Source of the DNA: Streptomyces sp. NBC_00250
Lineage (GTDB): Bacteria; Actinomycetota; Actinomycetes; Streptomycetales; Streptomycetaceae
NCBI RefSeq assembly: GCF_036192275.1
Contig: NZ_CP108088.1
Span: forward strand, 8,604,001-8,668,000
DNA length: 64,000 bases
Direction of reading: 5' to 3'
How positions within the stretch are numbered: position 1 is the first letter of the stretch; each line of letters opens with the position of its first letter. Positions 28,859 through 37,945 of this stretch are shown in pieces. A program made the position numbers and the translations under genes. The notes beneath the pieces were generated by a model that made no database searches, was not told where the DNA came from, and worked only from the letters and a program-made list of their open reading frames with translations.

Positions 28859-28872
28859 TGTCGTCTCAGAAT

Positions 28873-28894
28873 GCGGTCAAGGCCGGTTGACCGC
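28873..28894. promoter_or_regulatory. Candidate ROK operator dyad overlapping the -35 box
   Basis: Perfect 8-bp arms GCGGTCAA (28873-28880) and TTGACCGC (28887-28894) flank a 6-bp centre. The right arm contains the -35 hexamer of the leader promoter, so a bound dimer would block RNA polymerase. The site begins 14 bases after the ROK stop. Linkage to the ROK repressor is inferred from position. Confidence 0.65.
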
Positions 28895-28916
28895 CCCGCG
28901 AAGCCGCTGTCATATT
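28887..28916 (+). promoter_or_regulatory. Promoter of the leader peptide and sulfate-ester operon
   Basis: A -35 hexamer TTGACC (28887-28892), 18-bp spacer and -10 hexamer CATATT (28911-28916); TCATAT with a 17-bp spacer is equivalent. The expected transcription start falls at about 28922-28923, exactly at the GTG of the leader peptide, which would make the leader mRNA leaderless. Confidence 0.7.
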
Positions 28917-28922
28917 GCTCCC

Positions 28923-29006
28923 GTGAATCCGGACATGAGCCTCATCTCCCGCAGGCACGTCGACCTCTGTCGACAGGCCAGCGCGGTCTGTGCCGTCCGC
29001 GTCTGA
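28923..29006 (+). CDS. Cysteine-containing regulatory leader peptide
   Basis: A 27-codon ORF from GTG 28923 (23 codons from ATG 28935) ending at TGA 29004-29006. The product contains RRHVDLCRQASAVC, the signature of the short actinobacterial leader peptides found upstream of sulfur and cysteine genes, in which cysteine codons let ribosomes sense charged tRNA-Cys. Both cysteine codons are TGT. The GTG sits at the predicted transcription start, matching the leaderless short ORFs described as cysteine attenuators in mycobacteria. It precedes a sulfate-ester uptake operon, which fits cysteine-starvation control. Confidence 0.85.
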   Translation: MNPDMSLISRRHVDLCRQASAVCAVRV

Positions 29007-29241
29007 CCCAGGCGCCGGTCACCGTGCCGGCCCCACCCGTTCCGCTCCGGCCCTGCCGAAGGCGGGTCACCCGCCGTCGCCCCGCTGACGGACCGCGCCC
29101 CCTGCCGTCCCGGCCGCCGACCGGTCGCGCCGCATCCTCACCGCACGCCGCATTCCCGCGTGCCGCGTTTCCTTTTCCTTCCGCAGCGGAACGAATCCGT
29201 GCGTCCCGCGCGCCTCCGCTCTCCTCCACAGGCAGGCATCG
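29007..29241 (+). promoter_or_regulatory. Structured leader RNA between the Cys peptide and the operon
   Basis: A 235-base untranslated stretch. Two short hairpins can form: one around 29014-29034 (GCCGG paired with CCGGC) and one at 29061-29075 (GGCGGG paired with CCCGCC). Both loops carry a GGTCACC-like sequence, so alternative pairings are possible. The final 60 bases are pyrimidine-rich and the ribosome site before ATG 29242 is weak. This fits attenuation or anti-ribosome-site control, but the mechanism is not shown. Confidence 0.45.
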
Positions 29242-30834
29242 ATGACCGAGCTGTACTCCTCCACACCCTCCGCCCCCTCGCGGCGCACCACCCTGCGCGC
29301 CGCGGGCGGCGGCACCCTGCTGCTCGGTCTCGGACTCGCCGGCTGCCGCTCGGCGGTCTCCGAGGCCGAGGCGCCCGCCGGAAAGGCCGGTGCGGGGCCC
29401 CGCCGCGGCGGCATCGTCACCGTCGCCGTCAACAGCGACTTCACCCCCAGCCTGCTCTTCGCCCAGAGCGGCCAGTCGCTCCAGCAGCGCCTGATCTACA
29501 ACACCCTCACCCGCTACGACGACCGGCTGAAGCCGCAGCCCGAACTCGCCACCTCCTGGGAGCACGCCGAGGACGGCCGCGGCATCACCCTCAAGCTCCG
29601 TACCGGCGTCACCTTCCACGACGGCCGGCCCTTCACCGCCGACGATGTGATCTTCGCGGTGAAGAACCTTCAGAACCCGCTCCGCGCCGCCCAGTTGAGA
29701 GCCACCGCAGCCGCCGTCACGGGCTTCGAGAAGCGCGGCGACCACGAACTCGTCCTCCGGCTGGCCCATCCGGTGAACAACCTCTTCGACCTCTTCGAGT
29801 TCATGGTCATCACCGATCGGAACAGCGTCGAGGACGCCGTCACCGGCAAGAAGCTCAACGGCACCGGCCCCTTCAAGCTCACCAAGTGGAGCCCCGGCAG
29901 CGGCCTCAGCCTCACCCGCAACGAGAAGTACTGGCAGCCCGACCGCCCCTACCTCGACGGCGTCGAACTCCGCGTCGTACCCCAGGCCGACGCCCTGCTG
30001 TCCTCCCTCCGCACCGGCCAGTCCCAGCTCTCCTTCAGCGTCCCCGGCAAGAACCTCGCCGTCGTCGCGGCCACTCCCGAACTCGCCATCAGCCAGTACA
30101 CCACCGGAGGCGGGGCCTACTACCTCGGCGTCAACACCACCGTGGCCCCGCTGAACGACAAGACCGTCCGGCAGGCCCTCGCCCGGGCCATCGACCGCGA
30201 ACGCATCCTCAAGCAGGTCCTCGGCGGCTACGGACTCGCCTCCGCCACCCCCTGGCCCAAGTCCTCACCCGCCTTCACCGAGGCCGGCCGAACCCACTAC
30301 ACGTACGACCCGGGCAAGGCCCGCGAGCTCCTCAAGTCGGCCGGCCACACCCGGCTCGACCTGCCGCTCCTCCACATCAACCTGCCCGGCGACACCGCCG
30401 TCGCCGAGGCGATCCAGTACGACCTCAAGCAGATCGGAGTCCAGGTCACCCTCCAGCCCACCGACCCGGCCACCGCGCAGAAGAACCTCATCTCCCAGAA
30501 GATGCCGGGCCTCTGGGCCATGAGCCACAGCTTCGCGCAGGTCCAGCCCTCCACCCTCGCCGTCAGCGCGTACCCCTTCAACGAGGCCAAGAACACCTCG
30601 AAGTTCCGCTCCGCCGCCTACACGAAGGTCGTCCGCGAGGCCTGGACCACCCCCGGGACCGGCGCCCGCGCCAACGCCCTCCGGCAGCAGATCACCGACA
30701 CCCTCCTCGACGAGGCGTTCATCATCGACCTCGTCATCCGGGGCGCCGTCCAGGTCTCCGCCAAGAAGCTGCACGGCGTCACCCTCAACAAGTTCTCCTA
30801 CCTCAACCTCGACGACGCCTACCTGGCGGGCTGA
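29242..30834 (+). CDS. ABC importer solute-binding lipoprotein (SBP_bac_5)
   Basis: A 530-residue peptide/nickel-type binding protein. The N-terminus has a twin-Arg stretch (RRTTLRAA) and a lipobox LAGC (Cys36), so it should be a membrane-anchored extracellular lipoprotein, perhaps Tat-exported. The family-5 fold is evident from PQPELATSWEHAEDGRGITLKLRTGVTFHDGRPFTADDVIFAV and later YYLGVNTTVAPLNDKTVRQALARAIDRE. First gene of the transporter operon; its stop is one base before the next start. The ligand is probably a sulfated organic molecule, judged from the genes downstream. Confidence 0.9.
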   Translation: MTELYSSTPSAPSRRTTLRAAGGGTLLLGLGLAGCRSAVSEAEAPAGKAGAGPRRGGIVTVAVNSDFTPSLLFAQSGQSLQQRLIYNTLTRYDDRLKPQPELATSWEHAEDGRGITLKLRTGVTFHDGRPFTADDVIFAVKNLQNPLRAAQLRATAAAVTGFEKRGDHELVLRLAHPVNNLFDLFEFMVITDRNSVEDAVTGKKLNGTGPFKLTKWSPGSGLSLTRNEKYWQPDRPYLDGVELRVVPQADALLSSLRTGQSQLSFSVPGKNLAVVAATPELAISQYTTGGGAYYLGVNTTVAPLNDKTVRQALARAIDRERILKQVLGGYGLASATPWPKSSPAFTEAGRTHYTYDPGKARELLKSAGHTRLDLPLLHINLPGDTAVAEAIQYDLKQIGVQVTLQPTDPATAQKNLISQKMPGLWAMSHSFAQVQPSTLAVSAYPFNEAKNTSKFRSAAYTKVVREAWTTPGTGARANALRQQITDTLLDEAFIIDLVIRGAVQVSAKKLHGVTLNKFSYLNLDDAYLAG

Positions 30835-30835
30835 G

Positions 30836-31780
30836 ATGCGCGGCTACCTGCTGCGGAGACTCCCCTCCGCCCTCCTCGTCCTCCTCGTCGCCTCCTTCGT
30901 CGCCTTCGCCGTCCTCCGGCTCGTCCCCGGCGACCCCGCGGCCGTCCTCGCCGGGCCCGACGCGAGCCCCGGGACCGAGGCGGCCATCCGGGCCCGCCTC
31001 GGACTCGACGCCCCGCTGCACACCCAGTACCTCCGGTGGATCGGCGACCTCCTCACCGGCGACCTCGGACCGTCCTACGCGATCGGCGGACAGACCGCCG
31101 ACCTCATCGGCGAAGGACTCGGCGCGACCGTCGAACTCACCCTCGGTGCGCTGCTGTTCGTCGTCGTTCTCGGCGCCGCCCTCGGCATCCTCGGCGCCAC
31201 CTCCCGCAACCGCTGGGTCGGCGCGACCGTACGGATCCTCACCACCGCCGCCCTCGCCGTGCCGCCCTTCGTCACCGGCGTCCTCCTCGTCCTCCTCTTC
31301 GCCGTCGTCCTCGGCGTCCTGCCCCCGGGCGGACGCGTCCCGCTGCTCGACGCACCCGACCTCGGCGTCCAGTACCTGCTGCTGCCCGCCCTCTGCCTCG
31401 CCCTGCCCAGCGCCGCCGTCCTCGGCCGCTACCTCAAGGACGGCATCGAACGCGCCCTCGCCGAGGACTACGTCCGCACCGCCACCGCCGCCGGCATCGC
31501 CCCCCGGCGCCTCCTCTGGCACCACGCCCTGCCGAACGCCCTCCCGCCCGTCGTCACCCTCCTCGGCATGCAGACCGGCCACCTCCTCGGCGGCGCCGTC
31601 CTCGTCGAGGCGATCTTCGCCTGGCCCGGCCTCGGCCAGCTCGCCGAACAGGCCCTGGTCCGCCGCGACTACCCCGTCGTCCAGGACCTCCTGCTGCTCC
31701 TCGTCACCGTCTTCGTCCTCGTCCAGCTGCTCACCGACCTCGTCCACGCCTGGCTCGACCCCCGGATCAGGTGGGAGTGA
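30836..31780 (+). CDS. ABC importer permease, DppB type
   Basis: A 314-residue permease with six hydrophobic helices. The N-terminal MRGYLLRRLPSALLVLLVASFVAFAVLRLVPGDPA is characteristic of DppB/OppB proteins, and the EAA coupling loop reads EDYVRTATAAGIAPRRLLWHHALPNALPPVVTLLG. It forms the membrane channel together with the DppC-type subunit that follows. The ATG lies one base after the stop of the binding-protein gene, implying translational coupling. Confidence 0.92.
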   Translation: MRGYLLRRLPSALLVLLVASFVAFAVLRLVPGDPAAVLAGPDASPGTEAAIRARLGLDAPLHTQYLRWIGDLLTGDLGPSYAIGGQTADLIGEGLGATVELTLGALLFVVVLGAALGILGATSRNRWVGATVRILTTAALAVPPFVTGVLLVLLFAVVLGVLPPGGRVPLLDAPDLGVQYLLLPALCLALPSAAVLGRYLKDGIERALAEDYVRTATAAGIAPRRLLWHHALPNALPPVVTLLGMQTGHLLGGAVLVEAIFAWPGLGQLAEQALVRRDYPVVQDLLLLLVTVFVLVQLLTDLVHAWLDPRIRWE

Positions 31781-31783
31781 CCC

Positions 31784-32641
31784 ATGACCACCCAGACAGC
31801 GGCCCACCCGCCGCTCGCCCGCAGGGCCCGCCACCCCTACCGGGCCGCCCTCGCCACCGCCCGCGGCCGCGCCGGACTCGCCCTCGTCGGCCTGGTCGTC
31901 CTCGCCGGACTCCTCGCGCCGCTCCTCGCCGGACACGGCCCCACCGACCAGAGCGGCCTGGCGCTCGCCCCGCCCGGCACCGCCGGCCACGTGCTCGGCA
32001 CCGACGACCTGGGCCGCGACCTCCTCGCCCGGCTGCTCCACGGCATTCGCGCGGACCTCGGCATCATCGTCGTCGCCGTGCCGCTCGGCGCCGCCCTCGG
32101 CTGCCTCCTCGCCCTGGCCGCCGCCGTCCACCCGATCGCCGACACCGTCGTCCAGCGCACGTTCGACCTGATCCTCGCCTTCCCCGGACTCATCCTCGCG
32201 CTCGCCGTCACCGCGGTCCTCGGCCCCGGCCGGCTCCCCGTGATCCTCGTCATCGCCCTGGCCGAGATCCCCGTCTTCGGACGGCTCCTGCGCACCGGGA
32301 TCCTCGTGCAGCGCGGCCGGGAGTACGTGACGGCCGCCCGCGTCGGCGGCACCTCGGGCGGCCGGATCCTCACCCGGCACATCCTGCCCAACGCCGCCGA
32401 CCCGCTCGTCGTCCAGATCGCCGTCTCGCTCACCGTCGCCGTCTTCATCGAAGGCGCGATGAGCTTCCTGGGCGTGGGTGTCCGGCCCCCCGAACCCACC
32501 CTCGGAGCCGTCCTCAGCCAGTCCATGCCCTATCTCGCCCAGGCCCCGCATTTCGCCGCCGGACCGCTCGTGACCGTGACCGCGCTCGTCCTCGGTCTCT
32601 CCCTGACCGCCGAGGCACTGAACCGGGAGATACGCCGATGA
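31784..32641 (+). CDS. ABC importer permease, DppC type
   Basis: A 285-residue permease with a cytoplasmic N-terminal tail, a first helix (ALVGLVVLAGLLAPLLAG) and the extracellular loop HVLGTDDLGRDLLARLLHGIRADLGI typical of DppC/OppC proteins. The EAA loop reads REYVTAARVGGTSGGRILTRHILPNAADPLVVQI. It starts three bases after the DppB-type stop and overlaps the ATPase gene by ATGA. Confidence 0.92.
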   Translation: MTTQTAAHPPLARRARHPYRAALATARGRAGLALVGLVVLAGLLAPLLAGHGPTDQSGLALAPPGTAGHVLGTDDLGRDLLARLLHGIRADLGIIVVAVPLGAALGCLLALAAAVHPIADTVVQRTFDLILAFPGLILALAVTAVLGPGRLPVILVIALAEIPVFGRLLRTGILVQRGREYVTAARVGGTSGGRILTRHILPNAADPLVVQIAVSLTVAVFIEGAMSFLGVGVRPPEPTLGAVLSQSMPYLAQAPHFAAGPLVTVTALVLGLSLTAEALNREIRR

Positions 32642-34620
32642 CCACCCCACCGCTCCTCGAAGTCCAAGGCCTCGACGTGGAGTTCACCGCTCCGGACGGC
32701 GGGAGGCTGCGTGCCGTCCGGGACGTGTCGTTCACGCTCCGCCGGGGCGAGACCCTCGCCGTCGTCGGCGAGTCCGGATCCGGCAAGTCCACCACCGCCC
32801 TCGCCCTGCTCGGGATGCTGCCCGGCACCGGCCGGATCAGCGGCGGCTCGGTCCGGCTCGACGGAGAGGACCTCGTCACGGCCGGGGAGGACCGGCTGCG
32901 GGCCGTACGGGGCGTCCGCATCAGCATGATCTTCCAGGACCCCATGACGGCCCTGAACCCCGTCCTCACCGTCGGCCGTCATCTGGACGAGGTGCTCCGC
33001 GCCCACGCGGGACGCGCCGACGCGGGACGCGCCGACGCGGGACGTGCCCACGCGGGACGCGCCGACGAGGGCCGCGATCATCCGGGACACGCTCATGCCG
33101 GACGCGCCGATACGGGAGGCGACAAGGCGAAACCCCGCGCGGGACGCGACAAGGCCGCCCGGCGCGCCCGCGCCGTCGAGCTCCTCCGCCTCGTCGGCAT
33201 CCCCGACCCCGAGCGGCGCCTCGACGACCACCCGCACCAGTTCTCCGGCGGCCAGCGCCAGCGCGTCCTCATCGCCATGGCCCTCGCGGGTGAGCCCGAC
33301 GTCCTCCTCGCCGACGAGCCGACGACCGCCCTCGACGCCACCGTCCAGGACCAGATCCTCACCCTCCTCGGCGAGCTCACCCGTACCACCGGCACCGCAC
33401 TCGTCCTCATCACCCACGACATGGGCGTCGTCGCCCGCGCCTGCGAGCGCGTCCTCGTCATGTACGGAGGCACGGTCGTCGAGGACGGCCCGACCGCCGA
33501 GGTCCTCACCCGCCCGCGCCACCCCTACACCGCCGGGCTCCTTGCCGCGGTGCCCCGGCTCTCCGCCCCCTCCGGCACCCGTCTGACCGGCATCCCCGGC
33601 ACTCCGCCCGACTTGAGCCTCCCGCTCGCCGGCTGCGCCTTCGCCGCCCGGTGCGCCCTGGCCGAGGACCGCTGCCTCACCACCGCCCCGCCGCTCGTCG
33701 CCGTCGGCGGAACCGTCCGCGCCGCCTGCCTGCCCGCCGCCGAACGCACCGAACCGCTGCCGCCGCCCCCGCCGCCCGCCCGGATCGACCGCCCCGCACC
33801 CGGAGCCGTCGTCCTGGTCGCCGAGGGCGTGCACAAGACGTACAAGAGCCGCCGCAGCGACGTTCCCGCACTGGACGGCGTCTCGATCACCCTCGCGGCG
33901 GGGGAGACCCTCGGGATCGTCGGCGAGTCCGGCTCCGGCAAGTCGACCCTCGCCCGGGTCCTCGCCCACGCCCACCCCGCCGACGCGGGCCGGATCCTCC
34001 TGGACGGCCGGGACGTCACCCGCCCCGGCCGCGCCGAGCTGCACTCGGTACGCCGCCGGGTGCAGATGGTCTTCCAGGATCCGTACGCCTCCCTCAACCC
34101 CCGTATGACCGTGGGAGAGATCGTCGCCGAGCCGCTACGGGCCTTCGGGATCGGCACCCCACGGGAGCGCCCCGCCCGTGTCGCGGAACTCCTCCGTCTC
34201 GTCGGCCTCGACCCGGCCGCCGCCGACCGGCACCCCCGCTCGTTCTCCGGCGGCCAGCGCCAGCGCGTCGGCATCGCCCGCGCCCTCGCCCCCGAACCGG
34301 ACGTCCTCATCTGCGACGAACCCGTCTCGGCGCTGGACGTCTCCGTCCAGGCCCAGATCGTCGGCCTGCTCACCGATCTCCAGCGCGACCTGGGCCTCGC
34401 CCTCGTCTTCATCGCCCACGACCTGGCCGTCGTGCGCCAGGTCAGCCACCGCATCGCCGTGATGCACGAGGGGCGAATCGTGGAGACCGGTGGCGCCGAC
34501 GAGCTGTGCGAGCGCCCCCGCGACCCCTACACGCGCGCGCTGCTCGCTGCCGCGCCCGACCCCGTACCGGTGACGGCCCGGCCGCTCGTACCGCACCCGG
34601 CCGAGGCGGTGTCCGTATGA
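32638..34620 (+). CDS. Fused double ABC ATPase (DppD-DppF type)
   Basis: A 660-residue protein with two complete nucleotide-binding domains. Domain 1 (about 5-330) has Walker A GESGSGKSTTA (43-53), signature FSGGQRQRVLIAM (about 201) and Walker B VLLADEPTTALD. Domain 2 (about 395-655) has Walker A GESGSGKSTLA (about 428), signature FSGGQRQRVGIAR (about 535) and VLICDEPVSALD. Each ends with the oppDF extension (RHPYTAGLLAAVP; RDPYTRALLAAAP). The fusion replaces the usual DppD and DppF pair. A charged repeat is inserted in domain 1 between the Q-loop and signature. Starts with an ATGA overlap. Confidence 0.92.
   Translation: MTTPPLLEVQGLDVEFTAPDGGRLRAVRDVSFTLRRGETLAVVGESGSGKSTTALALLGMLPGTGRISGGSVRLDGEDLVTAGEDRLRAVRGVRISMIFQDPMTALNPVLTVGRHLDEVLRAHAGRADAGRADAGRAHAGRADEGRDHPGHAHAGRADTGGDKAKPRAGRDKAARRARAVELLRLVGIPDPERRLDDHPHQFSGGQRQRVLIAMALAGEPDVLLADEPTTALDATVQDQILTLLGELTRTTGTALVLITHDMGVVARACERVLVMYGGTVVEDGPTAEVLTRPRHPYTAGLLAAVPRLSAPSGTRLTGIPGTPPDLSLPLAGCAFAARCALAEDRCLTTAPPLVAVGGTVRAACLPAAERTEPLPPPPPPARIDRPAPGAVVLVAEGVHKTYKSRRSDVPALDGVSITLAAGETLGIVGESGSGKSTLARVLAHAHPADAGRILLDGRDVTRPGRAELHSVRRRVQMVFQDPYASLNPRMTVGEIVAEPLRAFGIGTPRERPARVAELLRLVGLDPAAADRHPRSFSGGQRQRVGIARALAPEPDVLICDEPVSALDVSVQAQIVGLLTDLQRDLGLALVFIAHDLAVVRQVSHRIAVMHEGRIVETGGADELCERPRDPYTRALLAAAPDPVPVTARPLVPHPAEAVSV
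33007..33126 (+). repeat. 15-bp minisatellite inside the first ATPase domain
   Basis: Eight consecutive 15-bp units, the first four almost identical, encode variants of Ala-Gly-Arg-Ala-Asp. The array sits between the Q-loop (FQDPMTALNPVLTVG) and the signature motif, in the helical subdomain, where family members usually have a short loop. Copies five to eight are diverged. Confidence 0.92.
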
Positions 34621-35573
34621 GCGGCTGCTGCACCCCGGGCCGTGGCTGCACGGCCGGCACCGGCCGTCCGGAGAGCTTCGCGCTCCTCCCGTCGCCCACC
34701 GTACGGACCGCACCGCGGCTCCACCCCATGGTGGAGCTGCCGGGCGGGACCTTCCGCATGGGCGACGCCTTCGGCGAGGGCTACCCGGCCGACCACGAAG
34801 GACCCGTACGGGAGGTGACCGTCGCCCCCTTCGCGATCGACGCCACTGCCGTCACCAACGCCCGGTACGCCGAGTTCGTCGAGGCCACCGGACACCGCAC
34901 CGACGCCGAACGCTTCGGCTCCTCCTTCGTCTTCCACCTGCTGCTCCACCCCTCCGCCGAACGCCACGTCCTCGGCGCCGTCCCGCAGGCCCCCTGGTGG
35001 CTCGGCGTCAGCGGCGCCGCCTGGCACGCCCCGGAGGGCCCCGGCTCCGGCCTCGAAGCCCGCGCCGACCACCCCGTCGTCCACATCAGTCACGACGACG
35101 CCCTCGCGTACTGCGCCTGGGCCGGCGTCCGGCTGCCCACCGAGGCCGAATGGGAGTACGCCGCCCGCGGCGGCCTCGACGGCGCCCGCTACCCCTGGGG
35201 TGACGACTTCACCCCAGGCGGCCGGGAGATGTGCAACACCTGGCTCGGCACCTTCCCGCACCGCTCCGAGCGGCCCGGCGGACACATCGGCACCGTGCCC
35301 GTCACCGCGTACGCCCCCAACGGGTACGGCCTCCACAACACTTCGGGGAACGTCTGGGAGTGGTGCGCCGACGCCTTCGGCCCGGGGGAGGGTCCGCAGC
35401 CCGGCCAGGTCCCCGAGCGCGTCATCCGCGGCGGCTCCTACCTCTGCCACGCCTCCTACTGCAACCGCTACCGGGTCGCCGCCCGATCCCACAACACCCC
35501 CGACTCCTCGACCGGCCACGGCGGCTTCCGCGTCGCCCGCTCGCTGCCCCCGGAAGGACCCGCCCCCGCATGA
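34617..35573 (+). CDS. Formylglycine-generating enzyme (sulfatase-modifying factor)
   Basis: A 318-residue FGE/SUMF1-family oxidase that converts the active-site cysteine of type I sulfatases to formylglycine. The copper-binding catalytic pair is Cys277 and Cys282 in GGSYLCHASYCNRYRVAARS, as in the characterised S. coelicolor enzyme. Other family blocks are MVELPGGTFRMGD, VRLPTEAEWEYAARGG, YPWGDDFTP and TSGNVWEWCADAF. There is no signal peptide, so modification is cytoplasmic. A Cys-rich N-terminus (SGCCTPGRGC) is unusual. ATGA overlaps join it to the ATPase before and the sulfatase after. Confidence 0.95.
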   Translation: MSGCCTPGRGCTAGTGRPESFALLPSPTVRTAPRLHPMVELPGGTFRMGDAFGEGYPADHEGPVREVTVAPFAIDATAVTNARYAEFVEATGHRTDAERFGSSFVFHLLLHPSAERHVLGAVPQAPWWLGVSGAAWHAPEGPGSGLEARADHPVVHISHDDALAYCAWAGVRLPTEAEWEYAARGGLDGARYPWGDDFTPGGREMCNTWLGTFPHRSERPGGHIGTVPVTAYAPNGYGLHNTSGNVWEWCADAFGPGEGPQPGQVPERVIRGGSYLCHASYCNRYRVAARSHNTPDSSTGHGGFRVARSLPPEGPAPA

Positions 35574-37945
35574 CCACCGGCACCCCACGCGAAGCCACCC
35601 GGACCGACGGCCCCCGGCACGACGGACCGTCGGCCCCCGCCACCCGGCGCGACCCCTACGAGGGTTTCGCAGGGCACGTCGGCCGTACCTTCGCCGAGTC
35701 CGAGCCCGCCTGGCCCACCCGCACCACCCCGCCCGCCAAGGCCCCCAACATCGTCGTCGTCCTCGTCGACGACATGGGTTTCAGCGACATCGGACCGTTC
35801 GGGTCCGAGATCCCCACGCCCGTCCTCGACCGACTCGCCGACGAGGGCGTCCGGCTCACCAACTACCACACCATGCCGCTCTGCTCACCGGCCCGCGCCG
35901 CCCTGCTCACCGGCCTCAACCCGCACCGCGTCGGTTACGCCATGGTCGCCAACTCCGACCCCGGCTTCCCCGGTTACGGCATGGAGATCGCCGACGACAT
36001 CCCCACACTCGCCGAACTGCTCCACGACGCCGGTTACGCCACCTACGCGGTCGGCAAGTGGCACCTCGTCCGCGACTCCGCCTCCAACGCGGCGAACGAC
36101 CGTGTCAACTGGCCCCTCCAGAAGGGCTTCGACCGGTACTACGGCGTCCTGGAGGGCCTCACCAGCCTCTTCCACCCGCACCAGCTCGTCCGGGACAACA
36201 GTCCTCTCGACATCGACGAGTTCGCCGACGACTACTACTACACCGACGACATCACCGACGAGGCGATCTCCATGGTGAAGTCGCTGCGCGCCCACGAGCC
36301 GGACAAGCCCTTCTTCCTCTACCTCGCCCACAACGCCGTCCACGGCCCCCTCCAGGCCAAGGCCGAGGACATCGCCCGCCACCGCGGCCGCTACGACGAG
36401 GGCTGGGACGTCCTGCGCGAGCGGCGCTTCGCCGACCAGCTCGCCGCCGGCCTCTTCCCGCCCGGCACCGAACTCCCCGCCCGCAACAGCGAGGCCGGAC
36501 TCGACGTACCCGCCTGGGAGTCCCTGACGGACGATCAACAACGGCTCTACGCCCGCTACATGGAGGTGTACGCGGCCCTCGTCGACAACATCGACCAGAA
36601 CCTCGGCCGGCTCACCGACACGCTCGCCGCCCTCGGCGAACTCGACAACACCGTCATCGTCTTCACCTCCGACAACGGCGGCACCGGCGAGGGCGGTGCC
36701 GAGGGAACCCGCTCCTACTTCAGCCGCTTCGTCCACCACCCGCGCCTCCCCGGCGACTGGGAGCCCGACGTCGACCGCGACCCCGAGCTCATCGGCGGCC
36801 CCCGCAGCCTCGTCCACTACCCCCGCGGCTGGGGCATGGCCTCCAACACCCCCTTCCGCCTGTACAAGGGCCACACCTACGCGGGCGGCGTCCGCGTGCC
36901 GTTCGTCCTCTCCTGGCCCGAAGGCGTCAGGAACGGCCGGCTCTCGCGTGGCCTCCGCCCCCAGTACCAGTACGTCACCGACATCGCCCCCACCCTCCTC
37001 GAACTCGCCGGTCTCGCCCGGCCCGCGAGCCGCCGGGGCGTACCGCTCCAGGAACCGGACGGCACCAGCTTCACCGCCGTCCTCACCGACCCCGCCCACG
37101 ACTCCACCCACCCCGAGCAGTACTGCGAGATGACCGGCAACCGGAGCCACTACCGCGACGGCCACAAGCTCGTCACACTCCACCGGCCCGGCACCCCCTA
37201 TGACGACTCCGAATGGGCCCTGTACGACATCCGTACCGATCCCACCGAGATCCACGACCTCGCCGCCGCCCACCCCGAGCTCGTCAAGGAACTCTCCGCG
37301 GCCTGGGAGGACGCCGCCTGGCGCAACGGCGTCTTCCCGCTCCCCGACCACAGCGGGGCCCTCGCCCGCCGTAACCCCGCGGAGGAACGCCTCACCCGCC
37401 CCCTCACCCTGCTGCCCGGCACCCCGGAGCTGGAGCGCTACCGCTCCTCCCGGCTCGTCTCGCTGCGCTCCTTCGAGATCGCCGTGGCCGTCGACGAGAC
37501 CGGGGACGGCGTCCTCGTCTCCCACGGCGACCAGGGCGGCGGCTACAGCCTGTACGTCGAGAACGGCCGGCTCGCCCTCGCGTACAACGAGTACGGAACC
37601 CTCCACGAGACCGACGCGGGCCCCCTCGGCCCCGGCCCGCACGAGATCCTCCTCGCCGCCACGGCCGAGGAGGGACTGCGCTGGCGGTTCACGATCACCG
37701 TGGACGGCGAGCACCGCGCCGCCCCCGACAGCGTGCACCAGCTCATCGGCATGGCCCCCTTCCAGGGCATCAGCATCGGCGTCGACCGAAAGTCCCCCGT
37801 CTCCTGGCCGCTCTTCGAACGCCGCCGCTCCTTCCGCTTCACCGGCCGCCTGGAGTCCGTCACCTACCGCCCCGGAGCCCCCGGCCCCGACGCGCCCGAG
37901 GCCGTCGCCGCCGCGCTCAAGGAGGCCGCCGCCGCCTTCGAGTAG
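35570..37945 (+). CDS. Type I arylsulfatase, cytoplasmic
   Basis: A 791-residue sulfatase. The FGly motif is Cys105 in CSPARAALLTG; metal-binding blocks are NIVVVLVDDMGFSDIG, YAVGKWHL and IVFTSDNGGTGEGG. The catalytic domain spans about 55-600; the remaining 190 residues form a beta-rich C-terminal module (RSFEIAVAVDETGDGVLVSHGDQGGGYSLYVENG). No signal peptide is visible, so it should act inside the cell on imported sulfate esters, releasing sulfate. It overlaps the formylglycine-enzyme gene by ATGA and ends the operon, followed by a terminator. Confidence 0.93.
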   Translation: MTTGTPREATRTDGPRHDGPSAPATRRDPYEGFAGHVGRTFAESEPAWPTRTTPPAKAPNIVVVLVDDMGFSDIGPFGSEIPTPVLDRLADEGVRLTNYHTMPLCSPARAALLTGLNPHRVGYAMVANSDPGFPGYGMEIADDIPTLAELLHDAGYATYAVGKWHLVRDSASNAANDRVNWPLQKGFDRYYGVLEGLTSLFHPHQLVRDNSPLDIDEFADDYYYTDDITDEAISMVKSLRAHEPDKPFFLYLAHNAVHGPLQAKAEDIARHRGRYDEGWDVLRERRFADQLAAGLFPPGTELPARNSEAGLDVPAWESLTDDQQRLYARYMEVYAALVDNIDQNLGRLTDTLAALGELDNTVIVFTSDNGGTGEGGAEGTRSYFSRFVHHPRLPGDWEPDVDRDPELIGGPRSLVHYPRGWGMASNTPFRLYKGHTYAGGVRVPFVLSWPEGVRNGRLSRGLRPQYQYVTDIAPTLLELAGLARPASRRGVPLQEPDGTSFTAVLTDPAHDSTHPEQYCEMTGNRSHYRDGHKLVTLHRPGTPYDDSEWALYDIRTDPTEIHDLAAAHPELVKELSAAWEDAAWRNGVFPLPDHSGALARRNPAEERLTRPLTLLPGTPELERYRSSRLVSLRSFEIAVAVDETGDGVLVSHGDQGGGYSLYVENGRLALAYNEYGTLHETDAGPLGPGPHEILLAATAEEGLRWRFTITVDGEHRAAPDSVHQLIGMAPFQGISIGVDRKSPVSWPLFERRRSFRFTGRLESVTYRPGAPGPDAPEAVAAALKEAAAAFE

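Follow-up and report, generated by a model that had tools for sequence, protein, structure and literature searches.

Among the closest described counterparts of the element analysed here are the polycysteine leaders of mycobacteria, represented by NF042933 (Ms5788A) and NF042936 (Ms4527A), two families of Cys-rich leaders named after M. smegmatis genes. Polycysteine leaders that act by translation attenuation in mycobacteria were reportedly described by Canestrari in 2020. The leader studied here, located in a window of 64,000 nucleotides of Streptomyces sp. NBC_00250 DNA (the whole stretch that was analysed), has in common with these families an apparently leaderless short ORF, a VDLxR core, a Cys near the stop codon, and sulfur-related targets. 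The mycobacterial leaders contain runs of Cys, whereas the window leader has single Cys codons, and it scores 21.2 and 19.8 bits against NF042933 and NF042936, respectively, which is below their cut-offs of 45. Translation attenuation is also the mechanism given for mycobacterial cysteine leaders in two papers (PMC13236596; PMC9031893).

The window leader belongs to a family that NCBI had already curated, NF042934, a model of the type cis_reg_atten with the name 'putative leader peptide'. It is, like the other members, a short ORF before sulfur genes and scores above the curated cut-off; there is no difference in kind, and only the target, an operon starting with a substrate-binding protein (SBP) gene, and the UGU rule presented below are absent from the model name. 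In tnaC of E. coli, which senses free tryptophan, the ribosome is held near the stop codon before a Rho site. The geometry proposed here for the window leader is alike, but the proposed signal differs, being a lack of charged tRNA-Cys. The use of tnaC as a parallel is also found in PMC1262725, in which Seliverstov et al. (2005) suggested a role for Rho in cysteine leaders without terminators, a prediction that was termed rather weak. The leader ORF without a terminator and the suggested Rho dependence are shared with the window leader, whereas runs of Cys codons characterize the leaders presented there, which come from Mycobacterium, P. acnes, and B. longum. The cysS leader uORFC-8-2 of Rhodobacterales is likewise a proposed case of ribosome-mediated cysteine attenuation, but it has its own tandem Cys codons, UGC being dominant, and an intrinsic terminator (PMC8632094). 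As UGC dominates in that leader, the UGU rule is not general to cysteine leaders. Eight leader peptides, none of them assigned to cysteine in the available sections, were listed in a reannotation of S. lividans (PMC8079986), and the Cys codons of six Cys-rich sORFs of M. tuberculosis were described as lowering the G/C-skew (PMC9094748). Neither a UGU preference nor Streptomyces leaders before sulfatase operons were found described in the open-licence literature searched, a scope outside which most subscription papers fall.

The leader and its operon

The features of the leader region are listed below by their position in the window. Rows are the 44 leader-bearing sequences that were compared, i.e., the window and 43 related loci.

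28887..28892, + strand: -35 hexamer TTGACC, identical in 44 of 44 rows
28911..28916, + strand: -10 hexamer CATATT behind an 18-bp spacer; CATATT in 35 of 44 rows, CATTCT in 6, other in 3
28923..29006, + strand: leader ORF, GTG start, 27 codons plus TGA; NF042934, 35.2 bits (cut-off 27)
28950..28973, + strand: RRHVDLCR codons, conserved nascent-peptide segment in the family alignment; codons of V, D, L, and the last R as in background usage
28959..28974, + strand: predicted, possible RNA hairpin GUCGAC-CUCU-GUCGAC inside the ORF
28968..28970, + strand: internal Cys TGT; TGT in 40 rows, TGC in 1, Arg CGT in 3
28989..28991, + strand: motif-final Cys TGT, presumed sensor codon, four codons before the stop; TGT in 44 of 44 rows
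29007..29241, + strand: C-rich unconserved gap, possible Rho loading region; C 0.485, G 0.277

The letters and coordinates given for this region in an earlier note made from the sequence (TTGACC, an 18-bp spacer, CATATT, GTG, and an ORF of 27 codons with two TGT codons) are correct. The ORF of 84 nt encodes MNPDMSLISRRHVDLCRQASAVCAVRV, has its stop codon at 29004-29006, and contains two Cys seven codons apart. The promoter-like site, with 9 of 12 matches, is the sole one in 28860-29260, and shuffled sequences gave a mean of 0.0 such sites (sd 0.1). CATATT and GTG 28923 are separated by 6 nt, a spacing from which transcription would start at or beside this GTG. The peptide matched NF042934 with an E value of 6.6e-9, or 5.7e-7 when all six frames of the genome were searched; an Rfam search of the window gave no match. 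The internal Cys at 28968 is not essential, since it is replaced by Arg in three rows.

The SBP gene starts with an ATG at 29242, which leaves a gap of 235 nt after the leader stop codon. The genes behind the leader, which mostly overlap or abut, are the following:

29242..30834, + strand: substrate-binding protein, family 5 (SBP_bac_5)
30836..31780, + strand: ABC permease 1
31784..32641, + strand: ABC permease 2
32638..34620, + strand: fused double ABC ATPase
34728..35573, + strand: formylglycine-generating enzyme, start codon chosen by script (6muj, E 1.4e-110)
35570..37945, + strand: arylsulfatase with CSPAR active-site motif, overlapping the preceding gene

The sulfatase resembles solved arylsulfatases (7all, E 1e-97; 1hdh, E 2.9e-86), and 6muj, matched by the product of 34728..35573, is the structure of a formylglycine-generating enzyme. 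With its family-5 SBP, the importer belongs to the peptide/nickel type. The best relatives with a name are carriers of nickel, peptides, or glutathione, and their scores are below the curated cut-offs. Judging from the sulfatase, the substrates of the importer would be sulfate esters, and the predicted role of the operon is to obtain sulfur from organic sulfate esters. A gene for a ROK regulator lies immediately upstream and is followed, on the opposite strand, by one for a TauD-like dioxygenase. The claim of the earlier note that a cysteine leader, presumably leaderless, heads an importer/sulfatase operon is supported by the NF042934 score above the cut-off and by the ABC importer, formylglycine-generating enzyme, and arylsulfatase genes downstream.

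The formylglycine-generating enzyme is a variable component of the operon, because no match to it was obtained between the ATPase and the sulfatase in the leader-lacking loci of L053-L078 or in the leader-bearing loci L036, L044, and L046. The start region of the SBP gene (29226-29244, CACAGGCAGGCATCGATG) is near-identical in the closer leader-bearing relatives, and a start region of this type was not found in leader-lacking or distant relatives. It shows a seven-base complementarity, with one G-U pair, to GTCTGTG around the sensor codon, which by a rough estimate is not above chance.

Conservation of the leader

A scan for the SBP gene yielded 61 loci, of which 56 were comparable after leaving out L074, which comes without upstream DNA, and L079-L082, in which SBP identity is 30% or less; the leader pattern was absent from these five. 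It was found by pattern search in 43 of the 56 comparable loci and was absent from 13, and scanning the upstream DNA, up to 1.5 kb of it, with position-specific scores gave the same division. None of the 13 leader-lacking loci scores above -3.4, whereas the weakest known core reaches 29.5 and random stretches have their 95% point at -3.1. Eight of them are Kitasatospora records. The sulfatase is kept in all 13, and leader control is therefore dispensable.

The spacer measures 18 bp in 42 of the 44 rows and 17 bp in the other two. The GTG is at the expected position in 42 rows, while L067 and L068 have an in-frame GTG one codon upstream, and the distance between the -10 hexamer and the GTG amounts to 6 nt in 38 rows, 7 nt in 4, and 10 nt in 2. 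The Shine-Dalgarno-like words GGAG, AGGA, and GAGG do not occur before the GTG in any of the 44 rows; at the level of sequence, this agrees, like the promoter spacing, with a leaderless start. The GTG is a better start than the ATG four codons inside the ORF, which is kept in just 29 rows. Conservation extends across the promoter and the ORF and falls at the leader stop codon. Where two rows have the same residue, the codon is more often identical in the leader than in the SBP gene, and this holds in every band of SBP identity: 0.929 versus 0.719 at 70-80% SBP identity (423 pairs, which are not independent) and 0.766 versus 0.634 at 40-60% (108 pairs). In this SBP-operon leader group, wobble positions are conserved across the whole ORF, which may reflect a hairpin particular to the group.

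Selection on the cysteine codon

Codon use was examined in 140 leaders of the family, consisting of 13 from the own genome, 28 of 29 loci from a sample of the genus, and 99 of 100 fetched regions, the latter picked from among the best-scoring matches to the protein profile, blind to the codon. L095, which had been read in the wrong orientation, and L196, to which no core was assigned, were left out of this count, and the weak own-genome matches L017-L021 were not used. Outside the set are also three own-genome loci, of which L012 has TGT and L014 an insertion and TGT. The third, L009 (1441-1587), has Ser AGT at the sensor position and Cys TGC four codons earlier, with a GST-like gene downstream.

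The motif-final Cys is encoded by TGT in 137 of the 140 leaders and by TGC in three (L194, L199, and L202). The other Cys codons of the same peptides, in the 19-codon stretch or up to 12 codons beyond it, show the reverse, with 15 TGT and 125 TGC. In the background of 356 called genes, 88 of 867 Cys codons are TGT; these genes have a GC3 above 0.86, a filter that may lower the share of UGU, and the comparison with the 15 of 140 is independent of it. Among the 41 loci fetched from a sample of the phylum, L215-L237 were counted (the remainder was read only), and all 23 have TGT. Reduced to distinct stretches (n = 135), the numbers are 132 TGT and 3 TGC, and the mean share over 23 groups is 0.98; single-linkage clustering was too coarse, as it gave only six clusters, and these groups were used instead. 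The internal position is TGC in 43 and TGT in 5 cases family-wide; the SBP-operon group differs, with TGT for 40 of 41 Cys. The constancy of the final UGU is a point that a specialist would not expect.

With one majority codon counted per group, the codons of V, D, L, and the second Arg (position -7) fit the background (z -0.8 to 0.5), whereas that of the final Cys departs from it with a z of 68.8. Weaker departures were seen for Ser at -4 (z 6.2, mostly AGC) and Arg at -14 (z 4.1). Since the V-D-L codons are at background while the final Cys is fixed as UGU, selection acts on the peptide in the motif and on the codon in the sensor. In 137 of the 140 leaders, the distance from the UGU to the stop is 0-7 codons, while the other reading frames stop that soon in only 8 of 280 cases.

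Two genes for tRNA-Cys were found, both with the anticodon GCA. Of 70 tRNA matches, nine longer ones and a weak one were left out of the anticodon scan, and one of those scanned was not called by ARAGORN. As GCA is the only tRNA-Cys anticodon among those examined, UGU should be read by wobble, which would make it slower and hence a better sensor. In poly-Cys leaders of another family (L212-L214, L238-L240, and L249; a set in which loci of two genomes overlap), the Cys run is mainly TGT and the Cys of the core VDLCR or VGLCR is TGC. L250, with the run TGT TGC TGC, goes against this trend.

The gap and RNA structure

From the long gap between leader and operon, the earlier note had deduced a mechanism based on RNA structure. 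This part of it was not borne out. The distance to the start of the SBP match varies from 149 to 499 nt among relatives, the gap sequence is not conserved, and no terminator-like site was found in 28860-29260. When a stalled ribosome was modelled at 33 loci, the accessibility of the SBP start changed by a mean of -0.002, compared with +0.003 for control masks; single loci ranged from -0.114 to +0.147, and such modelling is weak over RNAs of 200-500 nt. What the gaps have in common is their composition: C exceeds G in 44 of 44 SBP gaps and after the stop codon in 138 of 140 family members, as compared with 109 of 144 control upstream regions. The gene for Rho is present in the genome.

A conserved hairpin in the SBP-operon leader group is possible according to the folding predictions. 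Its Arg codon is CGA in 33 rows, CGG in 10, CGT in 1, and CGC in none, so that the pair is retained in 43 of 44. Pairing was found in 95.5% of the cells of the alignment versus 95.0% in shuffles (34 of 500 as high), and covariation, at 0.056 versus 0.049 (45 of 500 as high), was not above shuffles either. Structures slid along the alignment pair far less (16-38%), as is expected for a structure derived from one row. RNAalifold retains the inner stem and favours different outer pairs. Compared with shuffles, folding is only slightly better, both for the leader by itself and with the gap included (z about -1.0 each). A hairpin in the ORF of the family at large was rejected, the mean folding z being -0.42 relative to synonymous versions (57 distinct cores, which are not independent); the lowest values belong to the cysteine dioxygenase and cysM groups. 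An AGGCAGG element shared by other leaders was not found behind them: it occurs in 6 of 140 cases compared with 21 of 1400 random windows, and three of the six are in the SBP-operon group.

Proposed mode of action

The window leader is quite likely a cysteine attenuator of the NF042934 family that is leaderless and operated by the ribosome, and the main reading of the earlier note, namely that the leader of the sulfatase operon senses a shortage of cysteine, is probably right, as far as can be judged from sequence. We infer that the leader is translated, that ribosomes stall on it, that the system responds to cysteine, and that Rho is involved. RNA polymerase would start at or beside the GTG, and a ribosome would enter the leader immediately. 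With ample Cys-tRNA, it would reach the TGA and depart, and transcription across the bare, C-rich gap would be aborted, probably through Rho. When Cys-tRNA is scarce, the ribosome would slow down at the UGU at 28989-28991, aided by the conserved nascent peptide RRHVDLxR and by the G-U wobble reading of this codon. Standing four codons before the stop, it would shield the last part of the ORF together with the first part of the gap; termination would then fail, and the importer, formylglycine-generating enzyme, and sulfatase would be produced.

For the attenuator speak the promoter-like site, the ORF, its family and context, the codon selection on UGU and the peptide selection upstream of it, the short tail, the C-rich gap, the presence of a Rho gene, and GCA as the sole tRNA-Cys anticodon among the tRNAs examined. 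Against it count the 13 of 56 loci without a leader, the three UGC leaders, the Ser AGT of L009, the codon departures at Ser -4 and Arg -14, and the leaders before cysteine dioxygenase, where induction by shortage makes no sense. The mycobacterial systems, moreover, are reported to be translational and not Rho-dependent, and the wobble conservation across the ORF in the SBP-operon group is left unexplained by a model in which only the peptide matters.

That last observation, together with the predicted inner hairpin, which is kept, and the SBP start region conserved in the closer relatives, would suit translation attenuation, in which the ribosome-binding region of the SBP gene is masked by folded leader RNA until a stalled ribosome releases it, as in the polycysteine leaders of M. 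smegmatis. It is also the mechanism reported for mycobacterial cysteine genes in PMC13236596. We nevertheless regard it as rather unlikely here, because masking by a ribosome leaves the mean accessibility of the SBP start unchanged in the 33 loci (by a modelling that is weak for long RNA), neither the sequence nor the length of the gap is conserved, covariation is not above shuffles, and the 57 cores show no extra folding stability family-wide. Transcription attenuation of the classical kind, by an intrinsic terminator located in the gap, has precedents in the trp and ilv leaders of Streptomyces (PMC8079986 and PMC1262725), but the lack of a terminator-like site around the leader and of any conserved gap sequence in the 44 rows renders it very improbable indeed. 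Finally, a regulator such as the ROK protein encoded upstream could bind the conserved stretch, which would then be conserved chiefly as a DNA site, with the ORF being incidental. Of the 43 leader-bearing relatives, 39 have a ROK gene upstream, conservation in the SBP-operon group extends over both the promoter and the ORF, and CTGTCGACAG is palindromic. The same peptide motif, however, precedes many different genes, 117 of the 140 leaders being located before one of the searched gene types, and free V-D-L codons in combination with a fixed sensor UGU indicate selection on translation and not on DNA, which makes the regulator site improbable.

Returning to the ribosome-operated attenuator, a more specific version of it can be put forward tentatively, at somewhat less than an even chance. 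A single UGU, situated 0-7 codons ahead of the stop codon and 8-10 behind V-D-L and read by tRNA-Cys(GCA) through wobble only, could be the switch that ties the supply of cysteine to sulfur operons throughout the genome, with other Cys kept as UGC to ensure one exact halt site; the output may be inverted in the dioxygenase subclass. If this is true, a synonymous change of UGU to UGC should break or retune the switch while leaving the peptide unchanged. The position-specific rule allows a direct test of whether the choice between synonymous codons is enough to set how sensitive an attenuator is, and it could serve as an annotation marker for true leaders. Scavenging of organosulfur by Streptomyces would then be switched by the speed of the ribosome at a single codon, and scattered sulfur operons would be united by one simple element that needs no transcription factor.

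The family in this genome and beyond

Comparable leaders before other sulfur genes occur in the same genome. A profile search of it gave 21 matches at E ≤ 1, eight of which are above the cut-off. The first 16 matches precede cysO-cysM, a cysteine dioxygenase gene, three sulfatase genes, the SBP operon, and genes for a nitrite/sulfite reductase-like protein, a sulfurtransferase, an SsuC-like permease, a flavin-dependent monooxygenase, and a flavin reductase, as well as five targets without a plain link to sulfur (a GST-like gene, a 2-oxoglutarate oxygenase gene, a ROK gene, a dicarboxylate-type symporter gene, and a DUF1684 gene); matches that score below curated cut-offs underlie several of these names. 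In the genus sample, the family was found in 41 of 41 genomes (E ≤ 0.01), with 4 to 16 leader matches per genome, and in the phylum sample in 12 of 198 (E ≤ 1e-4), eight of these 12 being of the same genus.

A cysteine dioxygenase gene follows leaders of the RRVHMDLVRYAGCVCRPSC type in 31 of the 33 leaders with the words HMDL or YAGC; examples are L002 (1486-1572), L132, and L137-L142. As cysteine dioxygenase degrades cysteine, the logic of its leaders should be the reverse of induction by starvation. The ORFs of this type fold more stably than their synonymous versions, with z of about -1.8 to -2.9 in the seven YAGC cores tested. In L013, a leader of the family lies before an ORF with a ROK domain; a regulator would be an unusual target. 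Divergent pairs of family matches, about 0.5-5 kb apart, were seen in G200 (C2, 84820-85410), G221 (C28, 5265-10056), and G012 (C1, 7903529-7905805), and are perhaps two leader-headed operons placed back to back.
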